This document shows positions 28,395 through 48,603 of a DNA stretch of 52,381 nt, one piece after another. The notes beneath the pieces are model-generated. The model was not told the origin of the DNA, ran no database searches, and saw only the letters and a program-made list of their open reading frames with translations. The translations under genes were made by a program, and so were the position numbers. This stretch comes from Thiotrichales bacterium (GTDB lineage: Bacteria > Pseudomonadota > Gammaproteobacteria > HK1), in contig JAPOSC010000035.1 of assembly GCA_026709935.1 (NCBI GenBank), forward strand, positions 1 to 52,381, read 5' to 3'. Every line of letters starts with the position of its first letter. Position 1 is the first letter of the stretch.

Positions 28395-29353
28395 ACCATG
28401 ACCACCACTCCAGCGATTTTTCCGAACCGATGATGTGCCCCCGTTACACGGGGATCCCGACCTTCATGCGCACGCCCTTCGCGAACGCGCTCGACAACGT
28501 GGACATCGGCCTCATCGGGGTCCCGTTCGACGGGGGGGTCACCAACCGCACCGGCGCGCGGCACGGGCCGCGCGAGATCCGCAACCAGTCGTCGCTGATG
28601 CGCCGCGTGAACCAGGCGACGAAGGTCGCCCCGTTCGACCTGTGCCGGGTGTGCGATGTGGGCGATGCGATGATCCGCAGCCCCTTCCACCTGGAATCGA
28701 GCCTCGACGAGATCGAGCAGGCGTTCGCCCGCCTGCACGCCGCAGAGGTCGTTCCCATCGCCGCCGGCGGCGACCATTCGATCACGCTGCCCGTCTTCCG
28801 CGCCATCGCCCGGCACCGGCCGATCGGCATGGTGCACTTCGACGCCCACTGCGACACCCACGACGACTACCTCGGCTCCAAGTTCCACCACGGCGCCCCG
28901 TTTCGCCGCGCGGTGGAGGAAGGCCTGCTCGATCCGCATCGCACCATCCAGATCGGAATCCGCGGCGGTGTCGCCGACATCGACGTGTGGAAGTTCAGTC
29001 ACGACAGCGGGATGCGCGTCGTCTACATGGAAGAGCTGTTCGAACGGGGCTGGCGTTCAGTCATCGAGGAGGCGCGGACCATCGTCGGCGACGGCCCGAC
29101 CTACGTGAGCTTCGACGTCGACGGCCTCGACCCGGTGTACGCGCCAGGCACCGGCACGCCGGAGGTCGGCGGGTTCTCCACCATCGAGGCCCAACTCATG
29201 ATCCGCGCGCTCGCCGGTCTCGACCTCGTCGGCGGCGACGTGGTGGAAGTGGCCCCGCCGTTCGACCCCAGCGGCAACACCGCGCTCGTCGGCGCGACCA
29301 TGATGTTCGAGATCCTGTGCGTGGTGGCCGAGGCTCGCGCGCGTCGGAGATGA
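28391..29353 (+). CDS. Ureohydrolase, agmatinase/guanidinobutyrase-like
   Basis: 320-residue binuclear-Mn enzyme. Metal ligands are in AAGGDHS, MVHFDAHCDTHDD and VSFDVDGLDP. The segment YLGSKFHHGAPFRRAVEEGLLDP resembles guanidinobutyrase and guanidinopropionase of Pseudomonas (GbuA/GpuA) more than SpeB. It should release urea from a guanidino compound. The ATG overlaps the transporter stop by four bases. Exact substrate is not determinable by sequence reading. Confidence 0.88.
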   Translation: MNHDHHSSDFSEPMMCPRYTGIPTFMRTPFANALDNVDIGLIGVPFDGGVTNRTGARHGPREIRNQSSLMRRVNQATKVAPFDLCRVCDVGDAMIRSPFHLESSLDEIEQAFARLHAAEVVPIAAGGDHSITLPVFRAIARHRPIGMVHFDAHCDTHDDYLGSKFHHGAPFRRAVEEGLLDPHRTIQIGIRGGVADIDVWKFSHDSGMRVVYMEELFERGWRSVIEEARTIVGDGPTYVSFDVDGLDPVYAPGTGTPEVGGFSTIEAQLMIRALAGLDLVGGDVVEVAPPFDPSGNTALVGATMMFEILCVVAEARARRR

Positions 29354-41330: not shown

Positions 41331-42272
41331 TCACCTGTCTGAGGCGGATGTCAGCGTCCTCCGGACCAGGGACGCAACAAGCACGCCGGTCCGAGCATTG
41401 GCCTCCTCGGTCAGCCCGGCGATGTGCGGGGTCAGATAGAGGTTCGGAACGCCCGCGAGTGGCGAGCCAGCCGGCAGCGGCTCGTCCTCGAAGACGTCGA
41501 GCGCCGCGGCGCCGAGCCGGCCGGACATAAGCGCCTGCGCCAGCGCGGCCTCGTCGAGCACCCCGCCCCGAGCGGTATTGACGATGCAGGCGCCGGGTTT
41601 CATCGCCTCGATCTCGGCCGCCCCGACGAGATGCCGGGTCGCGCCGGTGAGCGGAACGTGCAGGGTCACCACGTCGCATTCGGCGAGCATCGTGGCGAGT
41701 GCGTCGAATCGGCGCACTCCCGGCGTACTCCATGCGGGGTCGTCGGGTGCCAGCACCGGATCGTAGGCGGCGACATCGACCCCGAACGCGACGGCCCGCT
41801 GCGCGACCGCGCGCCCGATGGCACCGAATCCGACGATGCCGAGCGTCTTGCCGCTCGCCTCCCGCCCGACGAGTTCCGTCCTCGGCCACGAGCCCGCCAG
41901 CACCCGATCGGTGGCGTGGTACGCGCCGCGCAGCATCATCAGCATGGCCGCGATCACGTACTCCGCCACCGCGGTCACGTTCGCGCCGGTCGCCGGATGC
42001 ACCGACACGCCGCGTTCGGCGCATGCATCGAGGTCGATATTGTCGAGACCGACCCCGAGCCGGCCGACTGCGACCAGCCGGGGTCCCGCCGCAAGCAGGC
42101 CACGATCGACACGGGTACGGTTGCGAACGATCAGCGCGCGGGCGGAGCCGAGCCGGCCTGCGATGCCCGCTGCATCCTGGTGCAGATCGGGGTCGTAGTG
42201 AACTTCAAACTCGGTGCGCAGCGAATCGACCGCGGGCGCGTCCATGAATTCGGTGATGAGGATGTCGGTCAT
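41331..42272 (-). CDS. D-isomer-type 2-hydroxyacid dehydrogenase
   Basis: 313 residues. NAD-binding motif GIVGFGAIGRAVA (about 145-157), catalytic Arg in VNTARGGVLDE, Glu near DVFEDEPLP and His in YLTPHIAGLTEEA are all present. It interconverts 2-hydroxy and 2-oxo acids with NAD(P). It is divergent from the SDH-like operon across a 212-base gap, so it may oxidise the hydroxy acid formed by the hydratase there. SerA or sulfolactate dehydrogenase-like roles are alternatives. Confidence 0.85.
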   Translation of the reverse strand: MTDILITEFMDAPAVDSLRTEFEVHYDPDLHQDAAGIAGRLGSARALIVRNRTRVDRGLLAAGPRLVAVGRLGVGLDNIDLDACAERGVSVHPATGANVTAVAEYVIAAMLMMLRGAYHATDRVLAGSWPRTELVGREASGKTLGIVGFGAIGRAVAQRAVAFGVDVAAYDPVLAPDDPAWSTPGVRRFDALATMLAECDVVTLHVPLTGATRHLVGAAEIEAMKPGACIVNTARGGVLDEAALAQALMSGRLGAAALDVFEDEPLPAGSPLAGVPNLYLTPHIAGLTEEANARTGVLVASLVRRTLTSASDR

Positions 42273-42484
42273 CGGCGAGTCGTCCGGGATGTCGCACGCG
42301 GGTGGGCGGAGAATCGCTCGGGACGGTCCACAGCCTGCAACATCTCCGAGCCGATACCTTGGCGCATCGCCGGCGTGCTGCGGCCCGACCGTAGTCGGTG
42401 TGAAACGGAGCCATCTCGCGATTTTCGCGGATGCGTCGAGGGATGTACATTCTCGCCATCTTCCCGACTGGAATCACGGACCGA

Positions 42485-43210
42485 GTGAGCGCTTCTCCGA
42501 CCCTGGAAGTACGTATCTGGCGCGGAACCGACACCGGCGCGTTCGCCGCCTACGAGGTGCCGGCGGCGGAGAGCCAGACCGTGCTCGACGTGGTGACCTG
42601 GGTCCAGCGCCATCGCGAGCCGGCGCTCGCGTACCGCTTCGCGTGCCGGGTGGGGGTGTGTGGATCGTGCGCGATGACCGTGAACGGGCGGGCGCGGTGG
42701 ACGTGCCGCAGCCATGTGAAAGACGTCGCCCGCGACGGACGGCTCGTGATCGAGCCCCTGCGCCACCTGCCCCGCATCAAGGATCTCGTGTGCGACCTGA
42801 CCCCGTTCTTCGACAAGTGGCGGCGCGCGGGCGGATGGTTCGAAGGAGAAGCGACCCGGCGCGAGCCGATGCCCGCGCTCGCACCCGGTGCCGAGGCGCG
42901 ACAGACGGTGGATGCGGGCATCGAGTGCATCAACTGTGCGGTGTGCTACAGCGCCTGCGACGTGGTGGGATGGCGGCCCGACTATCTCGGCCCGGCCGCC
43001 CTCAACCGTGCCTGGACCCTGGTCAACGACGCACGGCACGTGCGGACCCGAGAGGTCCTCGACGCGACGGCGACCAGCGACGGCTGCACTGTCTGCCATA
43101 CCCACGGAAACTGCACCGAGCACTGCCCGGTCGGCATCAGTCCCACCGCGGCCATCGCGGGACTGAAGAGAAAGGTGTTCCGCCGGTGGCTGCGGGGAGG
43201 ACACGCATGA
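42485..43210 (+). CDS. Succinate dehydrogenase/fumarate reductase-like iron-sulfur subunit
   Basis: 241 residues from GTG 42485 (an ATG at 42431 would add 18). The [2Fe-2S] ligands are in FACRVGVCGSCAMTVNGRARWTCR, the [4Fe-4S] site in ECINCAVCYSACD, and a third cluster region is TVCHTHGNCTEHCPVGISPTAAI. It passes electrons from the flavoprotein (44057) to the membrane anchors. It is the first gene of the cluster, separated from the anchors by a repeat-containing gap. Confidence 0.9.
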   Translation: MSASPTLEVRIWRGTDTGAFAAYEVPAAESQTVLDVVTWVQRHREPALAYRFACRVGVCGSCAMTVNGRARWTCRSHVKDVARDGRLVIEPLRHLPRIKDLVCDLTPFFDKWRRAGGWFEGEATRREPMPALAPGAEARQTVDAGIECINCAVCYSACDVVGWRPDYLGPAALNRAWTLVNDARHVRTREVLDATATSDGCTVCHTHGNCTEHCPVGISPTAAIAGLKRKVFRRWLRGGHA

Positions 43211-43228
43211 TCAACGCCACCCTGGACG

Positions 43229-43305
43229 CGCAGGCGGGAATAACGCCATCGACAAGGGCCATGGTTACGGCAACAACGTCATTCCCGCGCAGGCGGCCAT
43301 TGAGG
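43229..43305. repeat. Degenerate repeat family 3 copy
   Basis: The sequence from CGCAGGCGGGAATAACGCC through GGCAACAACGTCATTCCCGCG is a diverged version of the 58-base unit at 48634-48780 (GCGGGAAT-ACGCCATCGACA and GGCAACAACGTCATTCCC blocks). It occupies the space between the Fe-S gene and the first membrane anchor, inside an otherwise tight operon. Confidence 0.7.
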
Positions 43306-43313
43306 GGATACGG

Positions 43314-43643
43314 GTGAGCGAGAGCACCCTCTTCGCGTTGCAGCGCCTGTCCGCGAAGTTGCTGGCGCCGCTGGTCGTCGCTCACCTCGCGCTGATCCTC
43401 TACGCGGTGCACGGGGGTCTCACCGCGGCCGAGATCCTCGGCCGGACGCAGGGCAGCGCCACCTGGGGCGCCTTCTACGGACTGTTCGTGGTCGCAGTGG
43501 CGGTCCACGCCCCGATCGGGGTGCGCAACGTGGTGCGCGAGTGGACGCGGTGGCGAGGCCGGAGCCTGGATCTCGCGAGCGCGGGGCTCGCAATCCTCTT
43601 GCTCGCCCTCGGGCTGCGGGCGGTGGTGGCGGTGGTCGGATGA
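43314..43643 (+). CDS. SDH/FRD-like membrane anchor subunit 1
   Basis: 109 residues, GTG start, three membrane segments. LQRLSAKLLAPLVVAHLALILYAVHGG and GLFVVAVAVHAPIGVRNVVREWTRWRG keep the membrane histidines and Arg seen in cytochrome b556/FrdC-type anchors. It likely binds haem and/or quinone together with the next gene. Confidence 0.75.
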   Translation: MSESTLFALQRLSAKLLAPLVVAHLALILYAVHGGLTAAEILGRTQGSATWGAFYGLFVVAVAVHAPIGVRNVVREWTRWRGRSLDLASAGLAILLLALGLRAVVAVVG

Positions 43644-43710
43644 AGCGGTCCCGGATCCGTAGCATCGCCCTGCCCGCGCTCGAGCCGCGCTCGACGGCGA
43701 TGGCGGTTCG

Positions 43711-44055
43711 ATGAAGACCACCCCCGAGTCCCGGCGCGGCGCCGGATACCGAGCGTTCCTCGCGCACCGGCTCTCGGGGCTCGCACTGGCGGTGTTCCTG
43801 CCGGCGCACTTTCTCACGCTCGGCCTCGCACTCGAAGGGGCCGAGGCGCTTGATCGCTTCCTCGCGTTCGCGGAGCTTCCGCTGGTCAAGGCGGCCGAAT
43901 GGAGCCTCGTGGTGCTTCTCGCGACCCATCTCGGGCTCGGCGCGCGGCTTCTGGTGCTGGAACTCGGGCCGTGGCGCGGTCTGCGCATCGCGTGGGTCGG
44001 ATGGGCGGTGGGCATCGCGGCGGTGACCGGCCTCGCGTTCCTGGCGGTTGCTTGA
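43711..44055 (+). CDS. SDH/FRD-like membrane anchor subunit 2
   Basis: 114 residues with three membrane segments. FLAHRLSGLALAVFLPAHFLTLGLAL carries the HR-SG and membrane His pattern of SdhC-type cytochrome b subunits; a second His is in LLATHLGLGARLL. Its TGA is one base from the flavoprotein GTG. With 43314 it anchors the complex and passes electrons to quinone. Confidence 0.8.
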   Translation: MKTTPESRRGAGYRAFLAHRLSGLALAVFLPAHFLTLGLALEGAEALDRFLAFAELPLVKAAEWSLVVLLATHLGLGARLLVLELGPWRGLRIAWVGWAVGIAAVTGLAFLAVA

Positions 44056-44056
44056 C

Positions 44057-45799
44057 GTGAACGTCGAACGCCATCGCACCGACATCCTGATCCTGGGCTC
44101 CGGTGGGGCCGGGTTGCTGGCTGCGCTGCACGCAAAGCAGACGCACCCCGACGCCGAAGTCACCGTGGCGGTCAAGGGGCTGCTCGGCAAGTGCGGCTGC
44201 ACACGCATGGTGCAAGGCGGCTACAACGTGGCGATCGCCCCAGAGGATTCCGTCGAGCGCCACTTCATGGACACCATCGTCGGTGGCAAGTGGCTGCCGC
44301 GGCAGGACCTGGCGTGGCGGCTGGTCGAAGGCGCGGTGGAGCGCATCCGCGAGCTCGAGAACGAGATCGGCTGCTTCTTCGACCGCAACCCCGACGGCAC
44401 CATCCACCAGAAGGCGTTCGCGGGGCAGAGCTTCGACCGCACCGTGCACAAGGGCGACCTCACCGGTATCGAGATCATCAACCGGGTGATGGAGCAGGTG
44501 CTCGCGCGGGACGTGCGCCGGCTGGAGGAGCACCGCGCTATCGAGCTTGTCCCGGACCGGGACGGCTCGGGCATCGCGGGCGTGCTGCTGATCGACGTAC
44601 GGACCGGTGCCTACCGCTTTGTCGCCGCGAAGGCGGTGCTGCTCGCGACCGGCGCCGGCCCCACCATGTACCTCTACCACACCCCCTCCGGCGACAAGTC
44701 GTGCGACGGACTGGCGATGGCGCTCCGCGCGGGCCTCACCTTGCGCGACATGGAGATGGTGCAGTTCCACCCCACCGGACTGCTGGCGGGACCCGACACC
44801 CGCATGACCGGCACGGTGCTGGAGGAGGGGCTGCGCGGGGCCGGCGGCTACCTGCTGAACGGGGACGAAGAACGCTTCATGCTGCGCCACGATCCGGCCG
44901 CGGAGCGAGCGACTCGCGACCTCGTGAGTCGGGCGATCTACGCGGAGATGCGGAGCGGGCGCACGACTGCGATGGGCGGGGTGTACATCGAAATGGCCCA
45001 TCTCGGCCCGGCGGATGTCGCGCGCCGATTCCCGGGGATGGTCAAGCGCTGCGCGGACTGCGGCTTCGACCTGGCGGGCGGCCGGGTGGAGGTCGTTCCC
45101 ACCGCGCACTACATGATGGGCGGGGTCGAGTTCGAGGCCGACTGCACCACCGCCCTGAGGGGCCTGTATGCGGCGGGCGAGGACTGCGGCGGGGTGCACG
45201 GCGCGAACCGGCTCGGTGGCAACGGGGTCGCGAACTCCACGGTGTACGGGGGGATCGCGGGGGAGTCGATGGCGCGAGCGGTTCGCTCCGGCGCATCATG
45301 GACGGAGCCGGACGAGGGCGCGCTCAAGGCCGGGGTCGCGCGGGCCGAGCGTCCGTTTTTGCTGCCCCCGGGGGGCCTGGGGAGACTGCGCGAACGGCTC
45401 TGGCGCACCATGTGGGACGATGTCGGGGTGCTCCGCACCCGCGGAGGGATCGAGCGGGGGCTGGAAAGGATCGAGGCGTGCGGCGAAGAATTGCTGGCCA
45501 CCGGTCTCGCCGACGGCGACCGGGCGTTCAACCTCACGTGGCAAGACTGGCTCAATCTGGATAGCCTGATCGAGGTGAGCCGGGTGATCGCGCGCGCCGC
45601 CCTCGCCCGCGAGGATTCACGCGGCGCGCACTTCCGCGAGGACTTCCCGGAGACCAGCGACCTCGACGAAACCCGCTACATCCGGGTCGCACGGCGCGGC
45701 GACGAATTGCACCTCGACACCGCGCCGGTCGAGTTCTCCATCGTGCGCCCCGGCGAATCGCTCATCGACGGCGATGCGGGCGCGCCTCCGGTAAGCTGA
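44057..45799 (+). CDS. SDH/FRD-like flavoprotein subunit
   Basis: 580 residues from GTG 44057. FAD-binding ILGSGGAGLLAALHA, then KCGCTRMVQGGYNVA: canonical SdhA has H-T at this place for covalent FAD, here the position reads C-T. Substrate and catalytic motifs are kept: MVQFHPTG, MRSGRTTAMGGVY, PTAHYMMGGVEF and HGANRLGGNGVANSTVYGG. It should oxidise or reduce a C4-dicarboxylate-like substrate; NadB-type aspartate oxidase is the nearest alternative, but the Fe-S and anchor genes argue for a membrane complex. Confidence 0.88.
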   Translation: MNVERHRTDILILGSGGAGLLAALHAKQTHPDAEVTVAVKGLLGKCGCTRMVQGGYNVAIAPEDSVERHFMDTIVGGKWLPRQDLAWRLVEGAVERIRELENEIGCFFDRNPDGTIHQKAFAGQSFDRTVHKGDLTGIEIINRVMEQVLARDVRRLEEHRAIELVPDRDGSGIAGVLLIDVRTGAYRFVAAKAVLLATGAGPTMYLYHTPSGDKSCDGLAMALRAGLTLRDMEMVQFHPTGLLAGPDTRMTGTVLEEGLRGAGGYLLNGDEERFMLRHDPAAERATRDLVSRAIYAEMRSGRTTAMGGVYIEMAHLGPADVARRFPGMVKRCADCGFDLAGGRVEVVPTAHYMMGGVEFEADCTTALRGLYAAGEDCGGVHGANRLGGNGVANSTVYGGIAGESMARAVRSGASWTEPDEGALKAGVARAERPFLLPPGGLGRLRERLWRTMWDDVGVLRTRGGIERGLERIEACGEELLATGLADGDRAFNLTWQDWLNLDSLIEVSRVIARAALAREDSRGAHFREDFPETSDLDETRYIRVARRGDELHLDTAPVEFSIVRPGESLIDGDAGAPPVS

Positions 45800-45895
45800 G
45801 CCGGTCTTCGCCGCCGGTCGAGCGTCGCACTGCCCGACGCGCGGAGGCCCCGGTTTCACCAGAGGTGACGCACCGCCGGCAGCGGCACGAGGACC

Positions 45896-46870
45896 ATGCG
45901 AATGATCGCGCACGAATCCATCGAGCAGGCCGCGTACGACGTGATGTGCAAGGCGGCCATCGACATCCCCGAGGACTACCTCGGCGGCATCAAGGGCATG
46001 GTGCAGCGCGAGGAAGGGACGCTGTCCTGCTTCGTGCTGCACTCGATGGTGGAAAACTGGGAAGCGGCGAGCGCGGACCGGCGTCCGATGTGCGCCGACA
46101 CCGGCCTGCCGCGTTACTACGTGAAGGTGGGCAACGAAGCGCGCATCGCCGGTGGATTCGTGGCGGTGGAGCGGGCGCTTCGCTCCGCCACCGCACGCGC
46201 GACCCACGACGTGCCGCTCAGGCCGAACCGCGTGCATCCGCTGTGGCGTACCGATCACGACAACAACGTCGGCATCAACGCGCCGGAGGTCGAATGGAGC
46301 TTCGAGCCCGACGCGGACTGGATCGAGATCACCACCGTGCACAAGGGCGGCCTCTTCGGCACCGACTACCGGATGCTCTTCCCCGGCGACGGCATCGACG
46401 GCATCAAGCGCTTCTACCTGGACACCCTGGTAGCGTTCGGCAAGCGCGGGCTCGCCTGCCAGCCTGCGATTGTCGGGGTCGGGCTCGGCGGATCCAAGGA
46501 CACCTCGATGGTGCTCGGCAAGCAGGCCGCATGCCTGCGCACCGTGGGCAACCGGCATCCGGACCCGAAGATCGCGGCGCTGGAACTGGAGCTGAAAGAC
46601 CTCGGGAACCGCATCGGAATGGGTGCGATGGGCTTCGTCGGCTCGTCCATGGTGGTCGACTGCCACATCGAGGTCGGCTACACCCATACCGGCGGAATGC
46701 CGATGAGCGTGCATACCTTCTGCCTGTCCTCGCGTCGCGCCACGGCGCGGGTGGAAGCGGACGGCGCCATCGGGCTGCGCACGGACCCCGGATGGTTCAC
46801 CCCCTACATGCGGCGGGAGACGGTGGAATGGACGGCCGGCCCGGAAGCGCGCTCGCGGGGGTCGGCGTGA
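45896..46870 (+). CDS. Class I fumarase-like hydratase, alpha subunit
   Basis: 324 residues. TtdA/FumA N-terminal-type domain. Candidate [4Fe-4S] Cys in RRPMCADTGLPRYYVKVG, plus VGLGGSKDTSMVLGKQAACL, and GGMPMSVHTFCLSSRRATARV. GAGG precedes the ATG. It ends with GTGA overlapping a possible start of the beta subunit. It would hydrate fumarate or a fumarate-like acid; the preceding dehydrogenase could produce that acid. Confidence 0.85.
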   Translation: MRMIAHESIEQAAYDVMCKAAIDIPEDYLGGIKGMVQREEGTLSCFVLHSMVENWEAASADRRPMCADTGLPRYYVKVGNEARIAGGFVAVERALRSATARATHDVPLRPNRVHPLWRTDHDNNVGINAPEVEWSFEPDADWIEITTVHKGGLFGTDYRMLFPGDGIDGIKRFYLDTLVAFGKRGLACQPAIVGVGLGGSKDTSMVLGKQAACLRTVGNRHPDPKIAALELELKDLGNRIGMGAMGFVGSSMVVDCHIEVGYTHTGGMPMSVHTFCLSSRRATARVEADGAIGLRTDPGWFTPYMRRETVEWTAGPEARSRGSA

Positions 46871-46905
46871 CCACCGCGTGCGGTCCTCGGGGGGCGTCGG
46901 GGAAG

Positions 46906-47586
46906 ATGAACGAGCCGGGCAGCACCCTCGCCAGGGTCGAATTGAAGATCCCGGCCGCGCCGGAGGATCTCGCGAGGCTCACGCCCGGGAACGTCGTCTA
47001 CCTCGACGGCGCCGTGTACACCGCCCGCGAGGGGGTCTATCGCAAGGTGCTCGACGAAGGAGCGGCGCTGCCCGACGGCCTGGCCGATGTGAGCAACGCC
47101 AACTTCCACTGCTCACCGGCCGCCGCCCGCGCCCCGGACGGGACGTTCAACGTCGGCGGGGTGACCGCGACCGCGAGTTTCCGGTTCTCGAAATGGATGC
47201 CGCGCTGGTTCGAGATGTCCGGCGCGAAGGTGGTCATCGGCAAGGGCGGGATGAGCGGCGCGGACTATCGCGAGCACTTCGTTCCCGCCGGCGCGGTGTA
47301 TCTCACCACCGTCGGCTACGGCACCGGGGCACTGCTCGGGCGGGGGATCCGGCGGGTGCGCAACGTGTACTGGCTCGACGAGCTCGGCATCGCCCAGGCG
47401 ATGTGGGTGTTCGAGGTGGAGCGCTTCGGCCCGTTCCTGGTCGAAAGCGATCTCGCGGGCAACAGCCTCTTCGAGGCGCAGGGCCGACTCGTCAACGAGA
47501 ACCTCGATCGCGTCTACGCCGGGCTCCGGCCTCCGGCGCTGCGCCGTTACGGCGAGACGGACGATCGGGAAGAAGAGCTGATCTGA
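46906..47586 (+). CDS. Class I fumarase-like hydratase, beta subunit
   Basis: 226 residues from ATG 46906 (GTG at 46867, overlapping the alpha stop, is the alternative). TtdB/FumA C-terminal-type domain: LTPGNVVYLDGAVYTAREGVYRKVLDEG, SGAKVVIGKGGMSG, VYWLDELGIAQAMWVFEVERFGPFLVESDLAGNSLF. Odd: the usual substrate-binding T-(S/A)-G-R-M-D motif is replaced around FRFSKWMPRWFEM, so the substrate may be larger than or different from fumarate or tartrate. Confidence 0.82.
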   Translation: MNEPGSTLARVELKIPAAPEDLARLTPGNVVYLDGAVYTAREGVYRKVLDEGAALPDGLADVSNANFHCSPAAARAPDGTFNVGGVTATASFRFSKWMPRWFEMSGAKVVIGKGGMSGADYREHFVPAGAVYLTTVGYGTGALLGRGIRRVRNVYWLDELGIAQAMWVFEVERFGPFLVESDLAGNSLFEAQGRLVNENLDRVYAGLRPPALRRYGETDDREEELI

Positions 47587-47646
47587 AGCGACATCAAAGA
47601 GTTCGTTGTCCGGTATTCGACCAACTTTCATACACGGAGATCCGCG

Positions 47647-48603
47647 ATGTCCAACCCTCTCACCGTCCCGCCCCGCGCCCCGTTCAGGACGTTCCTCGAC
47701 TTCCCGCTCCACACCGACCTCGACACCTTCGACGCTCACGTCGCGATCCTGGGTCTGCCCTACGGCGACCCCTACACCATCGACGAGGTGACGAACGATC
47801 AGACCAACGCCCCCACCGCGGTCCGGCGCGCGTCCTCGCGCCTCTCCATGCATCCGGACCGGTACGACTTCGACTTCGGGGGGCCGTTGCTCGACGGGCA
47901 CGACATCCGCGTGGTGGACTGCGGCGACGTGCCGGGAGATGCCCGCGACCTCACTGCCCACTACCGCAAGGCGGAGGCGGCGGCGCGCAAGATCCTGGAC
48001 GCGGGCGCCATGCTGGTCAGCATCGGGGGCGACCACGGGGTGCCGATCCCGGTGTTCCGGGCCTGCGAAGGCCACGGTCCCGTCACCCTGGTACACGTCG
48101 ATGCGCATCTCGACTGGCGCGACGAGAGGCACGGGATCCGCGAGGGCTACTCCAACCCCATCCGGCGGGCGTCGGAGATGCCCTGGTTCGACCACATCAT
48201 TCAGATCGGCCTCCGTGCGCAAGGCAGTGCGCGGCAGCGCGAGTACGATGACGCCGTCGCCTGGGGAGCGGACATCATCACCTCCTACGAGGTGCTGGAG
48301 CACGGCATTCAGCCGGTGCTCGACCGCATCCCGGACGGCGGCACCTACTACCTGAGCATTGACGCCGACGGCGTCGACCCAACGGTGATGCCGGCGGTGA
48401 ACGCCCCCGCGCCGGGCGGCCTGCTCTACCATCACGTACGGGACCTGATCCACGGGGTGGTGAAGAAGGGGCGCGTCCTGGGCATGGACATCGTGGAGAT
48501 CACCCCGGCGCGCGACCTCAACGAGATCACCTCCATCGTCGCCGGCCGCTTCATCCTGAACCTGATCGGGACGGCGGTACGGGCGGGCCGTTTCGACCGA
48601 TGA
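47647..48603 (+). CDS. Ureohydrolase-family protein (agmatinase-like)
   Basis: 318 residues. Mn ligands in SIGGDHGVPI, LVHVDAHLDWRDE and YYLSIDADGVDP; the family C-terminus GMDIVEITPARDLNEITSIVAGRFILNLIG is kept. The N-terminus (TVPPRAPFRTFLDFPLHTDLDTFDAHVAILGLPYGDPYTIDEVTND) differs from the 28391 enzyme, so it is not a recent duplicate. It follows the hydratase after 60 bases, ending the cluster. It should cleave an amidino group from a guanidino substrate. Confidence 0.85.
   Translation: MSNPLTVPPRAPFRTFLDFPLHTDLDTFDAHVAILGLPYGDPYTIDEVTNDQTNAPTAVRRASSRLSMHPDRYDFDFGGPLLDGHDIRVVDCGDVPGDARDLTAHYRKAEAAARKILDAGAMLVSIGGDHGVPIPVFRACEGHGPVTLVHVDAHLDWRDERHGIREGYSNPIRRASEMPWFDHIIQIGLRAQGSARQREYDDAVAWGADIITSYEVLEHGIQPVLDRIPDGGTYYLSIDADGVDPTVMPAVNAPAPGGLLYHHVRDLIHGVVKKGRVLGMDIVEITPARDLNEITSIVAGRFILNLIGTAVRAGRFDR

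Follow-up and report, generated by a model that had tools for sequence, protein, structure and literature searches.

A Succinate Dehydrogenase- and Fumarase-Like Gene Unit of a Thiotrichales Bacterium as a Candidate Sulfonate Catabolism Module

Introduction

Succinate, fumarate, malate and oxaloacetate have sulfonate isosteres in 3-sulfopropionate, sulfoacrylate, sulfolactate and sulfopyruvate, respectively. 3-Sulfopropionate is formed from dihydroxypropanesulfonate and from homotaurine; Cupriavidus necator H16 forms it from the latter as a by-product. According to a 2024 paper (PMC11489063), there was no earlier report of bacteria degrading 3-sulfopropionate, apart from a thesis cited there for the conversion of 3-sulfopropionate via sulfoacrylate to sulfolactate in Roseovarius nubinhibens. 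For sulfolactate, an arrangement of SlcC, ComC and SuyAB genes is described in PMC12421959. The same paper reports an 11-gene "fumarate and tartrate" cluster of P. wurundjeri (MDP0926751-761), which has a TauE homolog as its seventh gene and is induced on sulfofucose. Here, we analyzed a stretch of 52,381 nucleotides from a Thiotrichales bacterium (GCA_026709935.1, contig JAPOSC010000035.1, positions 1 to 52,381; hereafter, the window). It contains genes for a succinate dehydrogenase (SDH)-like complex, a split fumarase-like hydratase and an arginase-family ureohydrolase, together with a divergent gene for a 2-hydroxyacid dehydrogenase (HADH). The original prediction, made from the sequence of the window, proposed that this array may degrade a substituted C4-dicarboxylate such as guanidino- or ureidosuccinate. 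We consider it likely that its conserved core is instead a sulfonate-linked module, taking all sulfonate substrates together.

Results

Conservation and Genomic Neighborhood of the Six-Gene Unit

A scan for the flavoprotein yielded 590 confirmed relatives, and the best 80 of these were retained. Among them, the genes for the Fe-S subunit, two membrane anchors, the flavoprotein and the alpha and beta subunits of the hydratase form a unit conserved in many proteobacteria; the gene order of the window recurs elsewhere as a six-gene core, nearly always without the ureohydrolase. Two types were distinguished. Type A has the order Fe-S subunit, anchor, anchor, flavoprotein, hydA, hydB, with window-like hydratases. 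In type B, the order is Fe-S subunit, anchor, anchor, hydA, hydB, flavoprotein, and the hydratases are only ~35% and ~28% identical to those of the window and differ from those of type A at active-site motifs. The unit was found in ~8% of the sampled genomes of one proteobacterial class and in 2% of those of another. Cultured relatives include Paracoccus versutus and Cupriavidus necator N-1.

The neighborhood tally covered 49 clusters of type A, 33 of them with full flanks, and 29 of type B, 23 of them with full flanks. Annotated plasmid copies of the unit are flanked by genes for TauE/SafE sulfite exporters, putative sulfate exporters and sulfite dehydrogenases, by paired UxaA-family (SuyAB-like) genes and Ldh-family plus hydroxyacid dehydrogenase genes, and also by tricarboxylate or TRAP transporters. 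Among the loci with full flanks, TauE lies within 11 kb in 16/33 of type A and 14/23 of type B. This enrichment has a binomial p < 1e-12 even at a background of 5%, the backgrounds being assumed values (~2%, with 5% as the harsh case). Of the 23 fully flanked type B loci, 13 have SuyB near the unit, as against only 2 of the 49 type A loci. The conserved neighbors are sulfonate genes and point to sulfonates, not guanidino compounds, as substrates.

One locus, L133, has the order Fe-S subunit, anchor, anchor, flavoprotein, hydA, hydB, TauE, LysR, TctCBA. It matches the sulfofucose-induced cluster of P. wurundjeri (cluster 3) in gene count and in the position of TauE, provided that tctB sits between tctC and tctA; that cluster is probably the same unit.

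Several further observations were made on these loci. A gene for a TPP-dependent enzyme recurs beside many type A and type B units (for example, at L059 6891 and L135 11717); it is closest to acetolactate synthase and 2-hydroxyacyl-CoA lyase models but scores far below their cut-offs. A haloarchaeal plasmid (Natribaculum luteum, L142) encodes the Fe-S subunit and a flavoprotein match of 50% together with TauE, a UxaA-family pair and an argH-annotated gene, the hydratase and anchors not being in view. In Paracoccus pantotrophus pPAN3 (L183), the flavoprotein match extends over only 389 amino acids despite matches to the hydratase, YeiH and NIPSNAP, and the flavoprotein gene may be broken or misassembled.

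Co-Occurrence with SuyB

SuyB (at least 67% identity) is present in 40 of 45 unit-bearing genomes, including that of the window and two relatives. Possession of the unit was the basis on which these 45 genomes had been selected; hence, two further samples were drawn regardless of it. In the window's class (274 genomes, flavoprotein called at no less than 65% identity), 6 genomes carry the flavoprotein, 11 carry SuyB and 5 carry both (5/6 vs 6/268; p 2e-7). In the class of a Kiloniellaceae metagenome-assembled genome (MAG), the corresponding numbers among 289 genomes are 22, 25 and 15 (15/22 vs 10/267; p 1e-13). These p values ignore relatedness and genome size and are hence too small. Neither factor explains the physical linkage of the two genes: SuyB lies within ~7 kb of the flavoprotein gene in 4 of the 20 genomes bearing both (G055, G263, G361 and G444).

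Flavoprotein Subfamily and Canonical Genes of the Host

The flavoprotein alignment included 87 sequences from clusters whose hydratase had been typed, 56 of them type A and 31 type B (loci as fetched, some overlapping). Residues H241, R290, H354 and R388 are kept across both types and correspond by alignment to FrdA His232, Arg287, His355 and Arg390, which we take to be catalytic. The FAD-anchoring His (SHT motif) is replaced throughout both types by Cys51 (CGCTRM). At the position of FrdA Thr244, presumably a substrate-site residue, the family has Glu259, directly preceded by a six-residue insertion with a conserved Arg (R252). Thus, C51, R252 and E259 are the subfamily signatures of the window flavoprotein. 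It scores far below the cut-offs of the curated SDH models (TIGR01816, 334.6 bits against 727; TIGR01812, 415.5 against 567) and is 34% identical to the SdhA of its own genome. Judging from these features, the flavoprotein belongs to a subfamily of its own, apart from SdhA. A pocket remodeled at one carboxylate end would fit a changed substrate, without saying which.

The host genome (88 contigs, 95.9% complete) encodes a canonical SdhA on contig C63 (TIGR01816, 980.5 bits, cut-off 727) with SdhB alongside, and a class II fumarase, FumC, on contig C55 (TIGR00979, 710.6 bits, cut-off 664.75). Within the genome, no hydratase pair but that of the window has a Fumerase_C domain. The view of the original prediction that the array is a dedicated pathway, not a spare set of tricarboxylic acid cycle genes, is supported by these separate genes and by the distinct flavoprotein subfamily.

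SlcC-Like Dehydrogenase and Other Candidate Sulfonate Genes of the Host

Only eight plasmid records contained homologs of the window HADH at E < 1e-60 (54–57% identity). In the five records viewed, a ComC-like Ldh gene always adjoins, and SuyAB is close by in four. Among the loci, all HADH homologs with at least 46% identity (46–60%) have a ComC-like Ldh neighbor, usually along with SuyAB, except for those of the window, of its two relatives and of L116, which sits near a contig end. The counterparts in L055 and L056 are 79–80% identical to the window HADH. We call the window HADH SlcC-like because its homologs sit in SlcC/ComC/SuyAB arrangements, and it is a candidate (S)-sulfolactate dehydrogenase.

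Elsewhere in the host genome, SuyB is encoded on contig C5 (G000:C5) with SuyA adjacent; it is ~70% identical to the reference, its identity as a sulfolactate lyase being by homology. A ComC-like protein (51% identity) is encoded on contig C61. Four TauE-family genes are unlinked to the unit, and this family occurs in 14/14 control genomes. In addition, genes for AprA (over the cut-off) and an adjacent AprB, adenylyl-sulfate reductase, are located on contig C55 (L179, G000:C55, 9684-11989, minus strand) and would provide a possible route for sulfite oxidation.

Organization of the Array in the Window

The genes of the array are listed in Table 1. As had been predicted, seven plus-strand genes and a divergent 2-hydroxyacid dehydrogenase gene were found; each of the eight has an uninterrupted reading frame at the stated position and belongs to the family named for it. 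The plus-strand neighbors either overlap or are separated by 60–105 bp. In the translation of the Fe-S subunit, the Cys motifs for 2Fe-2S, 4Fe-4S and 3Fe-4S clusters are visible. The array is bordered by L,D-transpeptidase-like and anmK-like genes (named from their translations, not by family search). A related MAG (L055) has the same order and orientation from the dehydrogenase through the ureohydrolase, with proteins 79–92% identical, and the flanks are kept there as well; therefore, this is no chance array. We looked for structured RNA within the cluster and found none.

Table 1. Genes of the array, with family assignments and scores.
Gene product	Position	Strand	Family or model match
SlcC-like 2-hydroxyacid dehydrogenase (HADH), candidate (S)-sulfolactate dehydrogenase	41331-42272	-	PF02826/PF00389; divergent from plus-strand genes
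Fe-S subunit, SdhB-like	42431-43210	+	TIGR00384 177.9 bits, cut-off 88
Membrane anchor 1, SdhD-like	43314-43643	+	Sdh_cyt PF01127 28.6 bits, cut-off 25.8
Membrane anchor 2, SdhC-like, HRLSG motif	43711-44055	+	Sdh_cyt PF01127 33.5 bits, cut-off 25.8
Flavoprotein dehydrogenase subunit, distinct subfamily	44048-45799	+	PF00890 + PF02910
Hydratase alpha, type A, class I fumarase/tartrate dehydratase superfamily	45896-46870	+	PF05681; TIGR00722 218.3 bits, cut-off 100.65
Hydratase beta, type A	46867-47586	+	PF05683
Arginase-family ureohydrolase	47647-48603	+	PF00491

Ureohydrolase

The original prediction placed weight on the ureohydrolase, which was found next to the unit in the window and only once (L055) among the type A and type B clusters of the tally. 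In a third genome (G275, L151), it stands together with hydAB, but a gene for an FkbM methyltransferase intervenes and the ureohydrolase gene contains an in-frame TAG; the flavoprotein copy of this genome is incomplete. Its hydratase and ureohydrolase genes lie ~1.2 Mb along the chromosome, and its Fe-S, anchor and flavoprotein genes are at a contig start. Thus, the ureohydrolase is not conserved with the rest and is probably a lineage-specific neighbor outside the conserved module. Several type A genomes have orthologs at other positions, as against 0 of ~17 type B genomes. In the window's class, they are present in 4 of the 6 flavoprotein genomes and in none of the 268 genomes without the flavoprotein. 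Nothing else speaks as strongly for the guanidino view; there may be a functional or ecological link between the ureohydrolase and the unit, such as a shared lifestyle.

In several records, orthologs (~60% identity) lie beside genes for amino-acid ABC transporters, M20 deacylases or RidA, and for this reason the enzyme probably acts on a guanidino acid. Other orthologs have unrelated neighbors, and that of Aminobacter adjoins aspartate ammonia-lyase and asparaginase genes. An AruI-type arginine route was rejected: the TPP enzyme by the L046 ortholog is an acetolactate synthase (713.7 bits, cut-off 509). A sponge-symbiont link through a paper on Ianthella basta was likewise dropped, guanidino compounds not being mentioned there. 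A second arginase-family protein is encoded in the window at 28421-29323 (plus strand) and is 28–29% identical to the ureohydrolase of the cluster; the host genome has seven arginase-family matches, two of them in tandem on contig C51.

Discussion

Proposed Pathway

Given the isostery of the sulfonates with the C4-dicarboxylates, the three activities encoded in the window would form the succinate-fumarate-malate-oxaloacetate sequence with a sulfonate in place of one carboxylate. The original prediction had already recognized a mimic of this sequence, with an Fe-S subunit and quinone-type anchors, and the protein families agree with it. We suggest the following route. The SDH-like complex would oxidize 3-sulfopropionate to 3-sulfoacrylate, passing electrons via FAD and three Fe-S clusters, presumably to the quinone pool. 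The fumarase-like hydratase would then convert 3-sulfoacrylate to 3-sulfolactate, if water is added with this regiochemistry, and the divergent SlcC-like dehydrogenase would oxidize (S)-sulfolactate to sulfopyruvate. Sulfolactate would thus be either oxidized or desulfonated. Pyruvate and sulfite could be reached with the help of the ComC-like dehydrogenase and SuyAB, encoded on other contigs, and the sulfite released could be oxidized by AprBA. For this particular route, from 3-sulfopropionate via sulfolactate, we see roughly even chances.

A number of points weigh against it. More than half of the type A loci (28/49) have no sulfur gene nearby, partly owing to contig ends. The only sulfonate-type gene in and around the window is the SlcC-like HADH; SuyAB, TauE and the ComC-like gene are on other contigs, and the ComC-like protein falls far short of the curated cut-off for sulfolactate dehydrogenase (182 against 500 bits). 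Without the FAD-anchoring His, the flavin potential should be lower, to the disadvantage of a succinate-like oxidation, and the Glu in the pocket would be no obvious sulfonate ligand. Furthermore, the co-occurrence with SuyB may reflect large, versatile genomes, and the match with cluster 3 of P. wurundjeri was drawn from gene count and annotation.

Alternative Explanations

The same module could act on sulfosuccinate or another C4 sulfonate, which would be oxidized to sulfofumarate and hydrated at the sulfonated carbon to give an unstable bisulfite adduct, releasing oxaloacetate and sulfite. The residues binding both ends of succinate are largely kept in the flavoprotein, and type A loci often carry sulfite export or oxidation genes and rarely SuyB; in addition, sulfite is known from general chemistry to add spontaneously to fumarate, so that induction would be understandable when growth releases sulfite. 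However, this route alone has no need of the SlcC, ComC and SuyAB found with type B units and in the window lineage, and genetic work on sulfosuccinate degradation was not found in the open-access literature searched. We regard it as unlikely, if worth keeping in view. It is also conceivable that only type B units lead to sulfolactate, and that type A hydratases hydrate sulfoacrylate at the sulfonate-bearing carbon, freeing sulfite directly from a malonate semialdehyde bisulfite adduct, with MmsA leading on to acetyl-CoA. In Pseudomonas sp. MPC6, the gene next after hydB encodes a genuine MmsA (L140 13415-14905; TIGR01722, 695 bits, cut-off 448.5), MmsA genes are near 9 of the 49 type A units and none of the type B units, and the two types differ at hydratase active-site motifs, as noted above. 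Most type A units nevertheless have no MmsA nearby, and a sulfolactate product would better fit both the SlcC-like gene of the window and the two loci (L085 and L071) that pair a type A unit with SuyAB-SlcC-ComC, so that direct release appears distinctly unlikely.

The degradation of guanidino- or ureidosuccinate, with the ureohydrolase as a pathway enzyme, found little to sustain it. It is favored by the close placement of the ureohydrolase gene at the 3' end of the unit, both in the window and in L055, by the co-occurrence of orthologs with the flavoprotein and by the neighbors of the Aminobacter ortholog. Against these stand the near-absence of the gene beside the unit elsewhere, the orthologs unlinked to the unit and the sulfonate genes as conserved neighbors, and we judge this substrate highly improbable. 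A lineage-specific combination would be that the ureohydrolase frees urea from a guanidino-sulfonate (taurocyamine or its C3 homolog), the amino-sulfonate then being converted to the acid oxidized by the SDH-like module. Taurocyamine-type chemistry exists in this enzyme family, because human AGMAT hydrolyzes guanidino acids including taurocyamine (PMC9772407). If true, this would join guanidine and sulfonate catabolism, but we hold it to be very unlikely. Finally, the resemblance to SDH in catalytic residues, Fe-S motifs and anchors could suggest a second, ordinary succinate dehydrogenase and fumarase. This is extremely improbable in view of the low SDH equivalog scores, the family-wide replacement of the covalent-FAD His and the substrate Thr, and the sulfonate neighborhood; a duplicate set was rejected on the grounds of the host's own SdhA, SdhB and FumC and the flavoprotein signatures.

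Significance

If the 3-sulfopropionate route is correct, the unit gives candidate genes and a quinone-linked first step for the degradation of this compound, and a role in the sulfur cycle is masked whenever it is annotated automatically as succinate dehydrogenase and fumarase. Sulfonate catabolism is known as a kind of system, and the SDH/fumarase-like entry module appears undescribed; no description of it was found in the open-access literature searched, most subscription papers lying outside this scope.

Comparison with Known Systems

The complex shares with complex II (E. coli SdhCDAB and FrdABCD) the four-subunit plan, the catalytic His/Arg/His/Arg, the Fe-S motifs and the quinone-type anchors. 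It differs by the exchange of the FAD-anchoring His for Cys, of the pocket Thr for Glu and by the Arg-bearing insertion; moreover, the array adds hydratase genes, and its relatives have sulfonate neighbors. The hydratase has in common with split class I fumarase and L(+)-tartrate dehydratase (7xky; TtdAB) the alpha and beta subunits and three cluster Cys, kept in an alignment to the two-subunit fumarase 7xky. However, it stays below the equivalog cut-offs, including those of fumarase and TtdA (NF004885, 201.8/276 bits; NF006084, 162.5/365; beta subunit TIGR00723, 104.5/145.15), and where TTSxRM is canonical, the beta subunit of type A reads TATASFRF, as seen in a consensus of 49 sequences of this type. 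The ureohydrolase resembles agmatinase- and guanidinobutyrase-type enzymes (GbuA, 3nio; GpuA, 3nip) in fold family and in its intact metal-ligand motifs (GGDH, DAHLD and SIDADGVDP) but scores under the agmatinase cut-off (TIGR01230, 143.0/174.3). As for sulfolactate degradation (SlcC/ComC/SuyAB, TauE and SuyZ; Paracoccus and Chromohalobacter), the known pathway handles sulfolactate, and the papers found describe neither an SDH-like nor a fumarase-like step for it, whereas here an SlcC-like gene stands beside such enzymes in the window, SuyAB is present in the genome, and SlcC/ComC/SuyAB-type genes flank the unit in many relatives.

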